40,535 nt of DNA, taken from contig JADYYS010000074.1 in NCBI GenBank assembly GCA_020853525.1, positions 1-40,535 of the forward strand, given 5' to 3'. Position 1 is the stretch's first letter; each line of letters starts with the position of its first letter. This document shows positions 27,117 through 35,426 of this stretch, piece by piece. The translations under genes were made by a program, and so were the position numbers. This stretch comes from Ardenticatenales bacterium (GTDB lineage Bacteria > Chloroflexota > Anaerolineae > Epilineales > Epilineaceae). A model generated the notes under the pieces. The model saw only the letters and a program-made list of their open reading frames with translations, searched no databases and was not told where the DNA came from.

Positions 27117-28382
27117 TCACCCGATCGCCGACTGCCACGGCATGTACGACGACCAACGCTGGTACAGATACGGCTTGTTCGTGAGGAACATGTCCGCCTG
27201 CCGGGCGATGGCCTCCTCGACCGCCGTCCACGGTTGGCCTTCCAGTTCCTGCAGGAGGGACGCCTTGCGGGCGTAGTAGAGCGGCAGGAGCGAGAGGGCC
27301 ACCTTGTCGGGATCGCCCTCGCCGCGGTTGTAGACCACGGCAAAGTCCATGACGATGCGCGCCCAGGCGTCCGGCGGGAAGCGCGGCTGGTCGCTCGTCG
27401 AGAGCTCGGCCACGACGGCCTGCTGCTCCTCGCTCAGGATCGCGCTCAGGTTGCGCCGGTAGCGCTTGAGCCCCTTCAGAAAACCGTCCCAGAGCGTCTG
27501 GCGGGTCGTGGGGATCGGTTCGGGCGGGAGCTGCGTCAGCGACCCCCACACCGGCACGCGGTAGGCGCCCTTCACGTCCGGCCAGACGCGGCGGTAGAAC
27601 GACATCAGACGGAACAGCGTGCCGGTCACCTGCATGAACTTGGGCTCGAAGCCGACCGTCGGATCCTTGTAATCGTGCGTCTTCGTGCCGAGCGGCGCCT
27701 GGTAGAGTCGCCAGCCGCTGTTGATCGCCAGCGTCACCATCCACATGTGGATCCCGAAGCGGGCGACGTCCGTCTCCCAGACGTCCTTGTCGAGGAACGT
27801 CTGCCAGGCCCGCGGCGACATCGCGATCTCGCTGCCGAGCGGCTGCCGCAGGTCGACGCCGTACAGCATCCGGGTGAACGGGTAGGCGATCATGTCGTTG
27901 ATCGTCACCTCGTGGCGGTCGCGGGTGTAGATCGGACTGACGTACTCCGCCTCGCCGGCCAGGATCGGGCCGACGAGGCGCTCGATCCAGGTCGGGTTGA
28001 TCGATCGGACGTCGGCGTCGACGACGGCGCAGGCCGAGGCGGTCAGCATGGCCGCGGCCTCCATGATCGCCCGGATCGCGCTGCCCTTGCCGGTGAGCCC
28101 CTGGTACTGCAGCGTCGACAGCGTCACCGCAGGCGGGAGCGCGACACCGCCGGCGATGGCCAGCGTGTCGTCCGTGCTCCCGCCGTCCGCCACGACGATG
28201 TGGGCGCGCTTGTCCGGGAAGTGCTCGACGACCCCCGCGGCGAGCGCGTTCAGGACGTGCGCGATCGTGCGGGTGTTCTTGTAGGTCGGCAGCCCGATGA
28301 CGATGTCGGCGTGGCCGAGGTGCTCGAACCGCCGCTTGGCGGCCCGATCCAGGGCGCTATCGATGTACAACAACTCGTTCAA
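27117..28382 (-). CDS. GT-A glycosyltransferase, mannosylglycerate-synthase (GT78) like
   Basis: 421 residues. The GT-A nucleotide-sugar domain starts with IVIGLPTYKNT, then VVADGGSTDDT and the metal-binding DAD (VVDADVR, near residue 119-121). The next blocks (RQPLGSEIAMS, GIHMWMVTLAINSGWRLYQ, LGTKTHDYK) and a helical C-terminal third of about 180 residues follow the order seen in GT78 mannosylglycerate synthase and related GT81 enzymes. The acceptor here is unknown; a compatible-solute or glycolipid role are both possible. The start is probably TTG at 28382, with GAGG-type SDs upstream; an ATG about 29 codons further upstream would span the -10 TATAAT (28424-28429). Last gene of a three-gene operon. 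Confidence 0.82.
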   Translation of the reverse strand: MNELLYIDSALDRAAKRRFEHLGHADIVIGLPTYKNTRTIAHVLNALAAGVVEHFPDKRAHIVVADGGSTDDTLAIAGGVALPPAVTLSTLQYQGLTGKGSAIRAIMEAAAMLTASACAVVDADVRSINPTWIERLVGPILAGEAEYVSPIYTRDRHEVTINDMIAYPFTRMLYGVDLRQPLGSEIAMSPRAWQTFLDKDVWETDVARFGIHMWMVTLAINSGWRLYQAPLGTKTHDYKDPTVGFEPKFMQVTGTLFRLMSFYRRVWPDVKGAYRVPVWGSLTQLPPEPIPTTRQTLWDGFLKGLKRYRRNLSAILSEEQQAVVAELSTSDQPRFPPDAWARIVMDFAVVYNRGEGDPDKVALSLLPLYYARKASLLQELEGQPWTAVEEAIARQADMFLTNKPYLYQRWSSYMPWQSAIG

Positions 28383-28423
28383 CCCGCACCTCGCTCCTCG
28401 TCCGGCGAATCGGCGCGGGATTA

Positions 28424-28429
28424 TACGGA
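28424..28429 (-). promoter_or_regulatory. Possible internal promoter (-10) for the glycosyltransferase
   Basis: A perfect TATAAT on the minus strand in the 95-base gap before the glycosyltransferase. It would start transcription near 28416, independently of the upstream operon genes. No clear -35 was seen. Confidence 0.4.
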
Positions 28430-28477
28430 GCGCGGCGACGAAGTCCTCATTGGTTGTCATAACGCCCGGATGCGACG

Positions 28478-29827
28478 TCAGCGCATCGACACCGCATCCG
28501 TCGCCACCGCCGCCGCGACCCGCCGCCCGATGTCGACGGCGAAGTTTGTGCCGCGATCCCAAGGGTACACCTGGCTCATCGACGCCAGGTAGAGCCCGGG
28601 CACCGGGGTCGCAAGGGGCGGGACGTGGGCCGAGAAGCCGCACGGCACGACGGGCTGGGCGTACGCCGCGCGCGACAGCCACGACGTTCGGACCCAGTCC
28701 GGGCGGAATGCCGGGTTGATCCGCTGCAGCGCCGGCAGCCACTGGGCCAGCAGGTCGTCGTGCGACATCGTGAAGGCGGGGTGGTCCGGGGGCAGGTAGT
28801 CGCCCATGTAGACCAGGTGATCGCCGCCGTAGTGGGCTGCATCGATGAGGTTCGTGTGCTCGACGCACGCCAGGAACGGCATCTCGCGCTTGTCGAGGTT
28901 CAGCCAGTACGTGCCGTCCGTCATGAGCTGCTGCTTGAGCGCGAGCACGAACACGACCGCCCCGAGGTGCTCGAGGTCGGCCAGGCGGCCGGCGTAGTCC
29001 GCCGGCAGGTCGGGCGCCAGCCGCGCCAGCACGTGCGGCGCCGTCGTCGCCACCACCGCGTCGAACGTCGCCTCGCCGTCGCCGGCGGCCACCGCCAGGC
29101 CGATGTCCGTTCGGCGGATGCCTCGCACCGGCGTGGACAGCCGGACGACGGCGCCGCGGCCCTCGACGGCGCGTTGCAGGGCGTCGGCGTAGGCTTGGAA
29201 GCCGCCGGCGACGTAGATCAGCTTGAAGGAGCGGGCGTGCAGGCGTGCCCAAAGCCAGCTCATCGGCACGTGCTCGTAGTGCTCGGGGCCGAACTTGCCG
29301 AGGAGCAGCGGCTCCCAGACGGCCGCGTAGGCGCGCTTGCCCATCCAGCGCCGGGCCCATGCGGCCGCGGTCACGTCTTCGAGCGAGCGCCAGTCCGGCG
29401 TGAGCTTGAGGTAGGCACCGACGGCGCCCATCCGAACGCGGTCGATGAACGGCATGCCCGGGAACGTCAGGATCGGGACGACGCCGTCCAGCGGGTAGGC
29501 CTTGCCGCGGTAGAACGAAGCCGAGACCGGGCGCAGCGTCTGCAGGCGATCGGCGAAGCCGATCTCCTCGGCCAGGCCGATGATCGCGCGATCCGTCTGG
29601 AAGAGATGATGGTAGTAGTGCTCCAGCGGCCATTCCCACGACGCGTCGCGGAAGCCCCCGGCCAGCCCGCCGGCGTGCGCGGCCCCGTCGTACACCGTCA
29701 CCGACCAGCCGTCGGCGGCCAGGTCCCACGCCGCGCTCAGCCCGGCGAATCCGGCGCCGATCACGGCGACGGAGCGGCCCGACGCCGACGCCGACGCGGG
29801 CGGAGACTGGGGCAGGGGTTGGCTCAT
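28478..29827 (-). CDS. FAD-dependent oxidoreductase (amine oxidase/protoporphyrinogen oxidase-like)
   Basis: 449 residues. An N-terminal dinucleotide-binding motif, VAVIGAGFAGLSAAWDL (about 20-36), is followed by the acidic end of strand 2 (VTVYDGAAHAGGLAGG). A C-terminal FAD-contact block reads GLYLASMSQVYPWDRGTNFAV. The family includes UDP-galactopyranose mutase-like, carotenoid and hydroxysqualene enzymes; the substrate here cannot be told from sequence. It sits between a flippase-like membrane protein (10-base gap) and a glycosyltransferase, which suggests modification of a sugar or lipid carrier rather than haem synthesis. No signal peptide is visible. The ATG at 29827 has only a weak SD, consistent with coupling to the upstream gene. 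Confidence 0.88.
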   Translation of the reverse strand: MSQPLPQSPPASASASGRSVAVIGAGFAGLSAAWDLAADGWSVTVYDGAAHAGGLAGGFRDASWEWPLEHYYHHLFQTDRAIIGLAEEIGFADRLQTLRPVSASFYRGKAYPLDGVVPILTFPGMPFIDRVRMGAVGAYLKLTPDWRSLEDVTAAAWARRWMGKRAYAAVWEPLLLGKFGPEHYEHVPMSWLWARLHARSFKLIYVAGGFQAYADALQRAVEGRGAVVRLSTPVRGIRRTDIGLAVAAGDGEATFDAVVATTAPHVLARLAPDLPADYAGRLADLEHLGAVVFVLALKQQLMTDGTYWLNLDKREMPFLACVEHTNLIDAAHYGGDHLVYMGDYLPPDHPAFTMSHDDLLAQWLPALQRINPAFRPDWVRTSWLSRAAYAQPVVPCGFSAHVPPLATPVPGLYLASMSQVYPWDRGTNFAVDIGRRVAAAVATDAVSMR

Positions 29828-31161: not shown

Positions 31162-31422
31162 TTACGCCACCGGCGCGCTGATCTCGCCCATGGTGACCGT
31201 CTCGCCGAGGACACGCTCCATCGTCATCGTGTGCGGGCAGTGGCCGTGGTGCTCGAACCCTTCGCAGTCGCAGGTCCAATGGCCGTGGTCGTAGCCCACC
31301 TTGTGGTCGCGGTGGTCACCGTCGACCGTGACGTTGAAGCTGTTGAAGACGATCCGCTGCTCACGCTCTTGGGCGTAGCGCATCGACTTCTCCACGTCGG
31401 CGACATAGGTGCTGGGCAGCAT
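31162..31422 (-). CDS. Small SWIM zinc-finger protein
   Basis: 86 residues. The SWIM motif CxCxnCxH is seen as CDCEGFEHHGHCPHTMTM near residues 48-65, preceded by beta strands (IVFNSFNVTVDGDH, HKVGYDHGHWTC). SWIM domains bind DNA or protein and occur alone or with SNF2 helicases and transposases; no such partner is nearby. The ATG at 31422 has AGGAG about 10 bases upstream. An in-frame N-terminal extension is possible but lies over the terminator and non-coding leader. Upstream are a strong promoter, a tiny leader ORF and an intrinsic terminator, which suggests controlled read-through. Partner and target unknown. Confidence 0.85.
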   Translation of the reverse strand: MLPSTYVADVEKSMRYAQEREQRIVFNSFNVTVDGDHRDHKVGYDHGHWTCDCEGFEHHGHCPHTMTMERVLGETVTMGEISAPVA

Positions 31423-31519
31423 GACTCGCTCTCTCCTGCTTTCTCGCGGCCGCAAGGCCAGCGGTGGGCTGGGCGCCGTTCGGGAAGGGGGACGCCCACG
31501 TGAGGATGGAAGAGGGGCG

Positions 31520-31553
31520 AAAAAAAGGGCGCCCCCACAATCGGGTGGCGCCA
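31520..31553 (-). terminator. Intrinsic terminator / possible attenuator upstream of the SWIM gene
   Basis: On the minus strand, GGCGCCACC pairs with GGGGGCGCC (8 bp, one mismatch, loop about 6-7 bases), followed closely by seven T residues (31520-31526). It lies 93 bases after the stop of the CRTAC1 paralogue. It is also only 37-70 bases after the predicted transcription start at about 31590, so it may attenuate the SWIM transcript. Confidence 0.8.
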
Positions 31554-31559
31554 CGCCAA

Positions 31560-31589
31560 TCACACCGGCGAACCAAGTGTCTCGTACAT
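31560..31589 (-). CDS. Candidate 9-residue leader peptide (MYETLGSPV)
   Basis: ATG at 31589 to TGA at 31560. The ATG is 7 bases after a TATACT -10, the same spacing as other putative leaderless genes in this window. The stop is 7 bases before the terminator stem begins. It has no run of one amino acid as in classical amino-acid attenuators. It is too short to prove by sequence alone. Confidence 0.35.
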   Translation of the reverse strand: MYETLGSPV

Positions 31590-31596
31590 GGGGGCC

Positions 31597-31624
31597 AGTA
31601 TAGCCCTCGAGCGGGGGGTGTCAA
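31597..31624 (-). promoter_or_regulatory. Strong sigma70 promoter upstream of the SWIM gene
   Basis: A consensus -35 TTGACA (31619-31624), 16-base spacer and TATACT (31597-31602) on the minus strand, the best sigma70 match found in the window. It lies in the gap after the CRTAC1 paralogue and points toward the terminator and SWIM gene. Confidence 0.8.
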
Positions 31625-31645: not shown

Positions 31646-33424
31646 TCACGGGGCGACGACCGCGCCTCCCGGCACGTAGCGCACCGGCGCCGCGCCCTGC
31701 ACCACGTGGTAGAACGTGTCCCGCTCCATGGCGTCGAGGTGCTGAAACGTGCCGTCCGGCCACGTGATCGTCACCTCGGACGCCCCGTCGTTCGGTCCGA
31801 GGCCGATGAGGACGCGCCGGTCCGATACCGAGAGGTAGCTCGAGGCGCCGCTGACCTGTCTGACGAGCGTTCGGTCCCCGACCTTGGCCTTGACCCGGGC
31901 GCAGATCGCCGAACGATTGCCGTCCGAACCTTCGAGCCACAGACTGATCCAGTGGCCGCATGCGCCGCAGACATTGCGCCCGATGGCGAGCGGACCGTTG
32001 TTGCGGGTCAGCACGACGTCGAGCGCGCCGTCGCCGTCGAGGTCGCCCACGGCCAGCCCGCGACTGACGTGCTGCTCCGTGAACGCCGGGCCTGCGGCAT
32101 CGCTGACATCGGAAAATCGGCCGGCGCCCGTGTTCTCGAACAGCAAGCTCGACTGTCCGAACGTCAGACCGGGCCGGACCGCGGCCGCATTGTCGTAGAT
32201 GTGGCCCGCCGCCGTCGCCAAGTCCTCGTCCCCGTCGCGGTCGGCATCGAAGAACACCGTGCCCCATTTCAGCCGGGGACGCGCCGCCAGGCCGATCCCG
32301 ACTGCTTCGCTGACCTCATCGAAGAGCAGGTCATCCTTTTGGCGATAGAGGCTGAGCGGCTCGGCCTGGAAGTTCGCGACGGCCAGGTCCATCCGCCCGT
32401 CCCCGTCCACATCCGCCGCATCGACGCCCATGCTGGCCTCGACGCGCCCCTCCGGGCTGAACGCCGTGCCGGAACGCGGACCGACGTCCGTGAACCGCCC
32501 CGTCCCGTCGTTCAGCCAGAGCTGGTTTGGATCGATGTCGTTCGCGACGTACGGATCGACGTCACCGTCGCCGTCGATGTCGACGAGGGCGAGCGCGAGT
32601 CCGTTGCGTGCGGCGCCGGTGATGCCCGCCGCTGCCGAGCCGTCGTGGAACTTCCCGTTGCCGTCGTTCACGAAGAGCAGGTCGTGCCTGCCCTCGTACA
32701 GCATCGGCGTGCAGTAGACCTGTTGTCCGTCCTCGTAACACGGCTGGGCGGATGCGGCATCGTACGCGAGGTAGCGAACGACGAACAGGTCGAGGTCACC
32801 GTCGCGGTCCGCGTCGAAGAATCCGGCGCTCGTCGCCCAGCCGACGTCGTCCGGCAGCCCGCTCCGGGATGTGATGTCCGCAAACGACGCGCCCGTGTTG
32901 CGCAAGAGACGCATGCCGGGCCCGTACGCCGTGAGCACGACGTCCGGCCAGCCGTCCCCATCCACGTCACCGACCGCCACACCCATGCCGTAGCCTGGGC
33001 TCGGCAGCGCCCATTCCGTCGTCGCGTCGCGGAACCGCCCCCTGCCGTCACCGATGAACAGCTTGTTCGCCGCACCGGCTGGGCGGCCGGTCGTACCGAT
33101 CGCACCGCTGTTCGCCGCGAGCAGGTCGGGTGCGCCGTCGCGGTTGAAGTCGGCGATCGCGACGCCGGAGCCCATGATCTCCGGAATGAGCTTGGCCGAG
33201 GTGTACGTCGCCACGTGCGTGAACGCCACGCCGCTCTTGTCGGCCGCGTCCGCGAAGTGCAGCCTGCCCGGCGCGACCCTTGGCAAGACGGAAGGAGGAC
33301 CGCTCTGCAGTGCCTGACGGACGCCGCAGGCAGACTGGGAGATCGTCACGACGGCGAAGGCGAGAACGCGGACGGCGAAGATCCCCGCCATCCTTGCTGG
33401 CTGTGGATGGGTCCGATCCGGCAT
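31646..33424 (-). CDS. CRTAC1-type FG-GAP / ASPIC-UnbV protein A
   Basis: 592 residues. A hydrophobic export signal ends near SACG; a lipoprotein anchor is possible but the lipobox is poor. Seven Ca-binding FG-GAP/VCBS loops can be counted, including DFNRDGAPDL, DVDGDGWPDV, DADRDGDLDL, DVDGDGRMDL and DLDGDGALDV, implying a seven-bladed integrin-like propeller. The C-terminal ASPIC/UnbV domain (about 500-580) includes SSYLSVSDRRVLIGLG. Family function in bacteria is unknown. It is a tandem paralogue of protein B (33624-35426); the last residues GAAPVRYVPGG and over 40 bases of DNA at the 3' ends are identical. ATG at 33424 has GAGG 6-7 bases upstream. It has its own putative operator array. 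Confidence 0.88.
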   Translation of the reverse strand: MPDRTHPQPARMAGIFAVRVLAFAVVTISQSACGVRQALQSGPPSVLPRVAPGRLHFADAADKSGVAFTHVATYTSAKLIPEIMGSGVAIADFNRDGAPDLLAANSGAIGTTGRPAGAANKLFIGDGRGRFRDATTEWALPSPGYGMGVAVGDVDGDGWPDVVLTAYGPGMRLLRNTGASFADITSRSGLPDDVGWATSAGFFDADRDGDLDLFVVRYLAYDAASAQPCYEDGQQVYCTPMLYEGRHDLLFVNDGNGKFHDGSAAAGITGAARNGLALALVDIDGDGDVDPYVANDIDPNQLWLNDGTGRFTDVGPRSGTAFSPEGRVEASMGVDAADVDGDGRMDLAVANFQAEPLSLYRQKDDLLFDEVSEAVGIGLAARPRLKWGTVFFDADRDGDEDLATAAGHIYDNAAAVRPGLTFGQSSLLFENTGAGRFSDVSDAAGPAFTEQHVSRGLAVGDLDGDGALDVVLTRNNGPLAIGRNVCGACGHWISLWLEGSDGNRSAICARVKAKVGDRTLVRQVSGASSYLSVSDRRVLIGLGPNDGASEVTITWPDGTFQHLDAMERDTFYHVVQGAAPVRYVPGGAVVAP

Positions 33425-33477
33425 CCAAAACCTCGCGCAACATGGGGCATCTCCGCCAGAACTGACGGCAGGACCCC

Positions 33478-33523
33478 ATGTTACTGCACAAGTTCTGCAC
33501 GAGTAAGTGCAGATCGCCTGCAC
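33478..33523 (-). promoter_or_regulatory. Helically phased CTGCAC array over a -10-like element
   Basis: CTGCAC occurs at 33484-33489, 33495-33500 and 33518-33523, and inverted (GTGCAG) at 33507-33512. The TGCA cores are 11, 12 and 11 bases apart, so all face one side of the helix. The last two form an inverted repeat AAGTGCAG/CTGCACTT (33505-33525). A minus-strand TAACAT (33478-33483) could be the -10 of CRTAC1-type protein A. This looks like an operator for a cooperative or multimeric regulator. Confidence 0.6.
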
Positions 33524-33623
33524 TTCGGTCCGATCTGCGTACGCGGGATCTCGCGCCGATCCCGCCTGACGCGCCGTGCCGCGCCGTGCATGCTGGACCC
33601 GCGTGTGAGCTCGTTGGGGGAGC

Positions 33624-35426
33624 CTACGGGGCGATCGTACCGCCCCCCGGCACGTAGCGCACCGGCGCCGCGCCCTGCACCACGTGGTAGAACGCGCCGC
33701 CGGCGACGTCACCCAGGTCCTGCTCCGTGCCGTCGGGCCAGCGGATGGCCACCAAGTCGGGACGATCCGCCGATCCGAGCCCGATGTGGACCCTTCGATC
33801 CGACACGGAGAGGTAGCTCGCCGCGCCGGTGACCTGCCGGTAGATCACGCGGTCCCCGACCACGGCCTTGATGCGCGCTCCGATCGCCGAGCGGTTGCCG
33901 CCCGCACCCTCCAGCCAGAGGCTGATCCAGCCGCCGCGTCCGGCCGAGGCGTTCCGCCCGATGCCGAGCGGCCCGTTGTTCCGGCTGAACACGACGTCCA
34001 CCGACCCGTCACCATCGAGATCGCCCGTGGCGAGGCCGCGGTTCACGTACGGCGTCGTGAAGGCGGAGCCGGCGGTGGCGCTCACGTCGCGGAAGCCGCC
34101 CTGGTCGTCGTTCTCGTAGAGCAGATTCGATTGGGCGAACGTCGTGCCCGGCCGGACGTCGGCGGCGTTGTCGAAGATGTGGCCGGCGGCCACGGCCAGA
34201 TCCTCGTCGCCGTCGTTGTCGGCGTCGAGGAAGACGGTGCCCCACTTCAGACGGCCGCGTGCCGACTGGCCGATGCCGCTGGCGTCGTTCACCTCATTGA
34301 AGAGGAGTCCGGTGCGCTGGCGCATCAGGCTGAGCGGCTCGTTCTCGAAGTACGCGACCGCCAGGTCCACCTGCCCATCGCCGTTCGGATCCCCGGCGTC
34401 GACGCCCATGCCGGCCTGGGTCCGGCCGTCCGAGCTGAGCGCGACCCCGGCCCGCAGCGCGCTGTCCGTGAAGCGGCCGGCGCCGTCGTTCAGCCAGAGG
34501 TGGTTCGGGCTGATGTCGTTCGCGACGAACGCGTCGACGTCGTTATCCGTGTCGATGTCCACCAGGGAGAGCGCGAGACCGTTGGCGGTCAGCGCGCCGA
34601 TCCCGGATTCGGCCGAGGCATCCGTGAAGGCGCCGCGGCCGTCGTTCAGGAAGAGCATGTCGGACTGCCCCTTGAAGAGCAGCGGCGTGCAGTAGACCTG
34701 GATCCCGCCCTCGAAGCACGGCTGGGCCGATGCGGCATCGTACGCCAGGTAGCGGGCCACGAAGAGGTCGAGGTCGCCGTCGAGGTCGCCGTCGAAGAAC
34801 CCGGCGCTCGATCCCCAGCCGATATCGCCCGGGATCCCGCTGCCGCCCGAAACGTCCTCGAACGCGGTCCCGGTGTTGCGCAACAGCCGCATCCCGTCGC
34901 CGTACGCCGTCAGCGCGATGTCCGTCCAGCCGTCGCCGTCGATGTCGCCCGCCGCGACGCCCATGCCGTAGCCCGCGCTCGGCAGCCGCCACTCGTCCGT
35001 CGCGTCGCGGAACGCACCCTTGCCGTCGCCGAGGTAGAGCCGGTTGGTGGCGCCTGCCGGTCGCTCCGCGGCGCCGGCCGCACCGCTGTTGATCGCGATG
35101 AGATCCGGCGCCCCGTCGCGGTTCACGTCGACGACCGCCACGCCGGAGCCCATGATCTCGGGCATGAGCTTCGCCGCCGTGTACGTGGCGACGTGCGTGA
35201 ACGCCACCCCGGACTGGGCGGTGACGTCGTCGAAACGCAGGGTCGCGGACGCCGCAGGCTCGCCGGTCGCCGTCACGTCGATCACGTCGACGGGCGACGC
35301 CGCGGGCGCGCTCGGCGCCGTGCTCGGCGCCGTGATCGACGCACATGCGGCGATCGAGGAGGACAGTGCGGCCACCAGGCCGACCATCATCGTGCGTCGT
35401 GAACAACGGCTCCGGTGGCGGTTCAT
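33624..35426 (-). CDS. CRTAC1-type FG-GAP / ASPIC-UnbV lipoprotein B
   Basis: 600 residues. A lipoprotein signal with lipobox IAAC (SSSIAACAS) leads to a Ser/Pro/Ala-rich spacer, then VAFTHVATYTAAKLMPEIMG. Seven Ca-binding loops are visible (DVNRDGAPDL, DIDGDGWTDI, DGDLDGDLDL, DIDTDNDVDA, DPNGDGQVDL, DADNDGDEDL, DLDGDGSVDV). The C-terminus is an ASPIC/UnbV domain. It is probably tethered to the outer face of the membrane as a Ca-stabilised propeller; the binding partner is unknown. Its ATG overlaps the stop of the TPR lipoprotein gene (ATGA), so translation is coupled and the two products probably work together. About 199 bases separate it from paralogue A. Confidence 0.9.
   Translation of the reverse strand: MNRHRSRCSRRTMMVGLVAALSSSIAACASITAPSTAPSAPAASPVDVIDVTATGEPAASATLRFDDVTAQSGVAFTHVATYTAAKLMPEIMGSGVAVVDVNRDGAPDLIAINSGAAGAAERPAGATNRLYLGDGKGAFRDATDEWRLPSAGYGMGVAAGDIDGDGWTDIALTAYGDGMRLLRNTGTAFEDVSGGSGIPGDIGWGSSAGFFDGDLDGDLDLFVARYLAYDAASAQPCFEGGIQVYCTPLLFKGQSDMLFLNDGRGAFTDASAESGIGALTANGLALSLVDIDTDNDVDAFVANDISPNHLWLNDGAGRFTDSALRAGVALSSDGRTQAGMGVDAGDPNGDGQVDLAVAYFENEPLSLMRQRTGLLFNEVNDASGIGQSARGRLKWGTVFLDADNDGDEDLAVAAGHIFDNAADVRPGTTFAQSNLLYENDDQGGFRDVSATAGSAFTTPYVNRGLATGDLDGDGSVDVVFSRNNGPLGIGRNASAGRGGWISLWLEGAGGNRSAIGARIKAVVGDRVIYRQVTGAASYLSVSDRRVHIGLGSADRPDLVAIRWPDGTEQDLGDVAGGAFYHVVQGAAPVRYVPGGGTIAP

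Follow-up and report, generated by a model that had tools for sequence, protein, structure and literature searches.

What does a strong promoter achieve when an intrinsic terminator stands between it and the gene that it serves? The question is raised by the leader of a SWIM zinc-finger-type gene on the minus strand of the window, by which we mean the whole stretch of 40,535 nucleotides analyzed here; it belongs to an Anaerolineae-type genome (Chloroflexota). The leader opens with a sigma70-type promoter on the minus strand, composed of a -35 hexamer TTGACA (31619..31624) and a -10 hexamer TATACT (31597..31602) separated by a 16-nt spacer; with 11 of 12 matching positions, it outscored every other sigma70-type candidate between 25,000 and 40,535, the part that was scanned; an earlier, sequence-only reading of this DNA had ranked it first in the window. 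The seven bases GGCCCCC follow the -10 hexamer and lead to the ATG of a 9-codon upstream ORF (uORF; 31560..31589, minus strand), ATGTACGAGACACTTGGTTCGCCGGTGTGA, coding for MYETLGSPV and a stop. We infer the A of this ATG (31589, minus strand) to be the transcription start, since it is the first purine past the C run; the uORF would then likely be leaderless, its ATG lying 7 nt past the -10 hexamer, a spacing enriched among the leaders. Leaderless genes have been reported in Chloroflexi by a survey (PMC3160421). The uORF stop lies 7 nt 5' of the stem of an intrinsic terminator hairpin (GGCGCCACCCGATTGTGGGGGCGCC; 31528..31552, minus strand; -18.0 kcal/mol), in which the stem-loop GGCGCCACC-CGATTGT-GGGGGCGCC contains one A.G mismatch and a single C separates the stem from a run of seven T (31520..31526, minus strand). 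The Shine-Dalgarno sequence of SWIM, AGGAG (31433..31437, minus strand), comes next, and its ATG at 31422 stands 105 nt past the stem. The short ORF and its distance from the -10 hexamer, the stop 7 bases before a terminator with seven T, and the spacing of about 100 bases to SWIM were thus all present as the sequence-only reading had described them.

The SWIM gene (31162..31422, minus strand), which would be the first regulated gene, encodes 86 amino acids with a CxC...CxH motif. Orthologues were found in 52 of 60 relatives, in 324 of 396 genomes of the class and in 118 of 151 genomes of the phylum sample, the named relatives that carry SWIM including Anaerolineae, Ardenticatenia, Thermoflexus, Caldilineales, Dehalococcoidia and other Chloroflexota. 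Residues C51, C53, C62 and H64 were invariant in 41 orthologues, and Pfam SWIM (PF04434) matched 24 of 29 orthologues at E≤0.01, the window copy lying below the Pfam curated cut-off with 14.5 bits. A PDB sequence search with the orthologue profile gave no match, structure comparison of the AlphaFold model (pLDDT 85.8) retrieved no fold that matched convincingly (best Foldseek E 0.35, best Z 2.7), and our literature search found no paper on SWIM proteins in Chloroflexi. An alternative in-frame start, GTG at 31563, was rejected because homology begins at the ATG at 31422, which is preceded by the Shine-Dalgarno sequence.

Behind SWIM, on the same strand, a gene for a flippase-like membrane protein (LPG_synthase_TM/TIGR00374; 29838..31037, start approximate; Pfam 187 bits, NCBIfam TIGR00374) is probably the second gene of the SWIM transcript. 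A gene of this family, whose names were assigned on the window copy, lay 3' of SWIM on the same strand at 32 of 81 loci (80 relatives and the window), often within 20-200 nt. A FAD amine-oxidase-like protein (28478..29827, minus strand; Pfam Amino_oxidase 101 bits) may be encoded by the third gene and a family 2 glycosyltransferase (27117..28460, minus strand, start uncertain; Pfam Glycos_transf_2 35.7 bits) by the fourth; the third position in relatives is often held by a same-strand gene, as judged by position and strand rather than family. SWIM and the downstream genes likely share one transcript, and the neighbours of SWIM point to cell-envelope glycan or lipid chemistry. On the other side of the leader, directly upstream, the window contains two adjoining FG-GAP/UnbV-ASPIC paralogues (31649-35426, minus strand); their 3' ends have a common 69-bp stretch with 93% identity, so a recent duplication or conversion is possible.

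We then compared the leader across relatives that keep SWIM. Starting from 210 collected upstream regions, 164 were distinct and long, and 159 remained after five had been removed. Four of the five (L107, L108, L111 and L121) have a second SWIM copy directly upstream in the same frame, apparently forming a two-SWIM protein, and in the fifth (L115) the assigned promoter lay upstream of a first SWIM-like copy. A promoter matching at least 9 of 12 positions was present in 147/159 regions and one matching at least 10 of 12 in 142/159, with exact TTGACA/TATACT hexamers in 103/159; some of the regions below the threshold may be truncated or may have the gene in another context. Among the 142 strong-promoter leaders, 137 had a terminator (-8 kcal/mol or better) in the interval from promoter to SWIM, as compared to 22.9±2.3 in shuffles. 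The terminator stems vary in sequence among relatives while their pairing is maintained, and the median distances are 75 nt from the -10 hexamer to the stem and 53 nt from the stem to SWIM. A redundancy filter dropped 8 of the 137 leaders, and the remaining 129 were treated as independent even where related. In 14 of these 129, the gap between stem and SWIM was at most 30 nt (21-30), which accommodates a ribosome site only and no second promoter; SWIM must therefore be reached by readthrough. The arrangement is that of intrinsic-terminator attenuators in general, with the promoter 5', the terminator in the leader and the gene 3'.

The claim that a strong promoter directly before a terminator rarely arises by chance held once conservation was considered. 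Taken in isolation, the window terminator is only moderately unlikely by chance: over 500 dinucleotide shuffles of the window leader, a terminator scoring equally well arose in 10 and an equally stable stem in 21. The conservation among relatives lifts the promoter-terminator layout far above chance. As a background, we searched two genomes for the promoter pattern. In the genome of the window, TTGAC-N16..19-TATACT occurred 15 times, compared to 0 for the reversed control. The other 14 sites precede tRNAs, infC, ssb and other genes (names, tRNAs excepted, being read from translated starts), and among the 15 sites only that of SWIM has an ATG at +1 and, ahead of a protein gene, a strong terminator whose T run is good; the exceptions were hairpins with weak T runs, for example before infC, and one tRNA's own terminator. 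In the one-contig genome of a relative (G016), nine such promoters were found, and among the protein genes that they precede only SWIM had a strong terminator and T run in front of it, the other sites showing one -8.4 and one -12.0 hairpin with poor T runs, and a tRNA with its own terminator. At L044 (G000:C67 near 40962), a 44-nt hairpin (-28.9 kcal/mol, weak T run) lies behind the promoter of an infC-like gene and may be a distinct leader element.

A reading frame between promoter and terminator is also maintained. For each leader, the start was picked blind to the frame by a heuristic: an ATG 6-8 nt past the -10 hexamer (leaderless) or, failing this, the best ATG, GTG or TTG preceded by a Shine-Dalgarno sequence. 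By these criteria, 103 of the 129 non-redundant leaders had a start signal and 26 had none. The frame was open as far as the terminator in 98 of the 103. Early stops, defined as frames ending more than 15 nt before the stem, numbered 5/103; shuffles gave 29.1±4.0 (never fewer than 17 in 300), and the two shifted frames had 48 and 24. In 57/103 leaders the stop lay between -15 and +18 nt relative to the stem, compared to 35.6±3.8 in shuffles and to 20 and 23 in the shifted frames, a preference that holds for about half of the leaders. An ATG at the leaderless position was observed in 20/129 leaders versus 9.0±3.1 in shuffles, and 18 of these 20 leaderless frames reached the terminator versus 12.3±1.8 (0/500 shuffles). 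A leaderless start together with a stop beside the stem was present in L012 (MKVYAPTILLP), L014 (MRLKTIPAANNRIVL), L077, L087 and L117. The frame is typically 9-20 codons long, Shine-Dalgarno-led in most relatives and leaderless in some.

The peptide encoded by this frame is not conserved. Even within the family of the window, three members carry differing frames, and in seven related pairs the mismatches on codon positions 1, 2 and 3 were 21, 22 and 27, giving no clear purifying selection on the peptide in these few data. In the two other members of the family the ORF runs through the terminator instead of stopping before it; the position of the stop is therefore not fixed, and masking of the hairpin by a ribosome still fits. 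The comparison proposed by the sequence-only reading thus bore out the promoter, the terminator, the pairing of its stem and the open frame, but not the peptide sequence.

We consider it reasonably probable that the element is a transcription attenuator before a SWIM-led operon, gated by translation of the short leader ORF. RNA polymerase would start at the strong promoter, and the transcript would open with the AUG of the 9-codon ORF. If no ribosome followed closely, the terminator would fold, releasing about 70 nt of leader RNA. A ribosome reaching the uORF stop, a few nucleotides from the stem, would instead cover the 5' arm of the hairpin; the masked hairpin could not form in time and the polymerase would continue into SWIM, the readthrough probably extending to the flippase and envelope-type genes behind it. 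Masking by a ribosome is suggested by three features together: polymerase has no way from the promoter to the gene except across the terminator, the leader is unstructured and the frame is open to the stem. The sensor would be the presence and timing of a ribosome and not a particular peptide or codon, with initiation rate, polymerase speed or pausing, and growth rate as candidate natural variables. In E. coli, placing a stop codon 5 bp instead of 28 bp ahead of a terminator reduced termination from about 90% to less than 10% (PMC4824070), and inhibition of the pyrL terminator by an advancing ribosome has also been described (PMC5021804); considering also the 7-nt gap in the window, translation should raise SWIM expression. 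The ribosome would have to load by the time that 45-70 nt have been transcribed, and since ribosomes often fail to catch the polymerase within the first 100 bp (PMC4824070), a polymerase pause may be needed, although we identified none.

The same anatomy could be produced by an attenuator that is run by a protein (for example SWIM, by autoregulation) or by a small molecule binding the leader RNA, the open frame being incidental, which appears unlikely to us. The strong conservation of promoter, terminator and gene order and the 26 leaders with no evident start signal agree with such a mechanism, and SWIM-type zinc fingers are able to bind nucleic acids. However, no conservation of leader sequence was found among relatives beyond the promoter, the terminator and the open frame, leader structure was likewise not conserved apart from the terminator, and Rfam searches of the window and of the loci of 20 relatives returned nothing at gathering level (best E 5.4). 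Binding to the leader also leaves the constraint on the open frame (5 versus 29 early stops) unexplained.

Classical ribosome stalling of the trp/his, erm or whiB7 type, in which slow uORF codons would favour an antiterminator and SWIM would be switched on under amino-acid or antibiotic stress, is improbable, even if a uORF with a terminator has precedent in the whiB7 and ilvB1 leaders (PMC13236596). MYETLGSPV has no run of regulatory codons and the peptides are unconserved. When 100 leaders were folded with the terminator 3' arm removed, they were no more stable than shuffles (mean fold z 0.05±0.09) and gave no sign of an antiterminator; pairing of the upstream leader with the terminator 5' arm was weaker than in shuffles (duplex z +0.47±0.08, 100 leaders). 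Moreover, the stop here abuts or overlaps the terminator, which to our knowledge is not the case in trp-type leaders. The first interpretation offered by the sequence-only reading, an attenuator sensing translation of MYETLGSPV, is consequently retained in part: dependence on leader translation is supported by the recurrence of promoter, terminator and open frame and by the excess of leaderless ATGs, whereas sensing of this peptide itself is not supported, given its lack of conservation, the small codon-position bias of the mismatches and the missing antiterminator.

The second interpretation, a small RNA of about 70 nt that ends at the terminator and has a function of its own, SWIM being read by leakage, is weak and in our view very improbable. 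A strong promoter with a strong terminator would yield an abundant short RNA, but the leader sequence varies freely among relatives, it has no Rfam match, and SWIM begins only 21-30 nt past the terminator in some species. A terminated leader transcript would still arise as a by-product of translation-gated attenuation. Least probable of all is a fixed damper, in which an unregulated terminator trims the output of the strong promoter to a constant level: it is the simplest use of the two elements and no signal is known, but it does not predict selection for a frame open up to the terminator.

A few enterobacterial genes are known to be controlled by translation-gated attenuators that do not depend on stalling at particular codons. 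In E. coli pyrE, the upstream gene ends just before the attenuator stem and a following ribosome prevents the hairpin, and in the growth-rate attenuator of E. coli ampC, a very short leader has a ribosome start site directly before the terminator, so that ribosome loading antiterminates. The SWIM leader resembles that of ampC in its very short length and in the placement of its ribosome start site; however, ampC has only a start-stop, whereas the frames here typically have 9-20 codons and their openness is conserved through the phylum. In pyrL of E. coli pyrBI, a short leader ORF is combined with an intrinsic terminator, and a closely following ribosome prevents the hairpin (PMC5021804, PMC4824070). 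The likeness to pyrBI and pyrE lies in a translated-type frame that reaches the terminator, as predicted from sequence in 98/103 leaders with a start signal. The genes are different and the window uORF appears leaderless, unlike those systems; it also has no U-rich, UTP-sensing pause tract, without any run of three or more U, and the short frame stops at the stem whereas that of pyrBI runs well past it. The whiB7/wblC leader of Actinobacteria likewise places a uORF and an intrinsic terminator before a small cysteine-containing protein (PMC13236596) and responds to stalling within the uORF; no stalling signature or antiterminator was found here, and the protein family is unrelated. Mycobacterial leaderless polycysteine uORF attenuators, as cited in that paper, sense cysteine through Cys codons; as far as this citation describes them, they resemble the window uORF as short leaderless regulatory ORFs and differ from it in that MYETLGSPV has no Cys and the peptide is unconserved. 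The difference from trp/his-type attenuators is the lack of a regulatory-codon run and of a mutually exclusive antiterminator here.

Outside the class, the element is widespread but not universal. We took 40 upstream regions from lineages of the phylum outside the class; 15 passed a strict promoter-plus-terminator test, and many of the 40 show no clear element. Further regions from these lineages (L230, L251 and L234) have the same anatomy with a weaker promoter or with a terminator missed by the scan: in L230, MLKILIFYHLNKLRV stops exactly at the stem and SWIM follows 24 nt beyond, and in L251 the TGA of MRVICPTTNGC overlaps the first base of the stem. A literature search for transcript starts of D. 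mccartyi found no paper. Tentatively, and with our judgement leaning against it, we propose that a device unnamed so far operates across the phylum, in which a leaderless or Shine-Dalgarno-led dummy frame of free sequence would act as a pure sensor of ribosome presence: transcription and translation starts would coincide, the ratio of ribosome loading to polymerase speed would set the expression of a SWIM-led envelope-glycolipid operon, and SWIM would possibly feed back on it.

One layout is kept across the class and is met again in further lineages of the phylum, most of which is uncultured. It also suggests that a small zinc-finger gene, widespread but functionally uncharacterized, is regulated. 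Leaderless and Shine-Dalgarno-led starts at the same locus form a natural series for the distance from stop to terminator, which also bears on whether a ribosome can catch the polymerase within 70 nt.

Two recurrent motifs were noticed in these leaders. The uORFs of L014, L067, L077, L104, L126 and L017, which belong to different families, contain an AATYGNATAG or N-x-I-like motif shortly before the terminator, which could be a coding, RNA or pause element. In addition, the 5' arm of the terminator often contains CACTAG, CACTGA or CACTAA, reading His-stop in frame (L010, L013, L024, L099, L233, L234 and L237), so that the stem itself includes the stop codon of the uORF.
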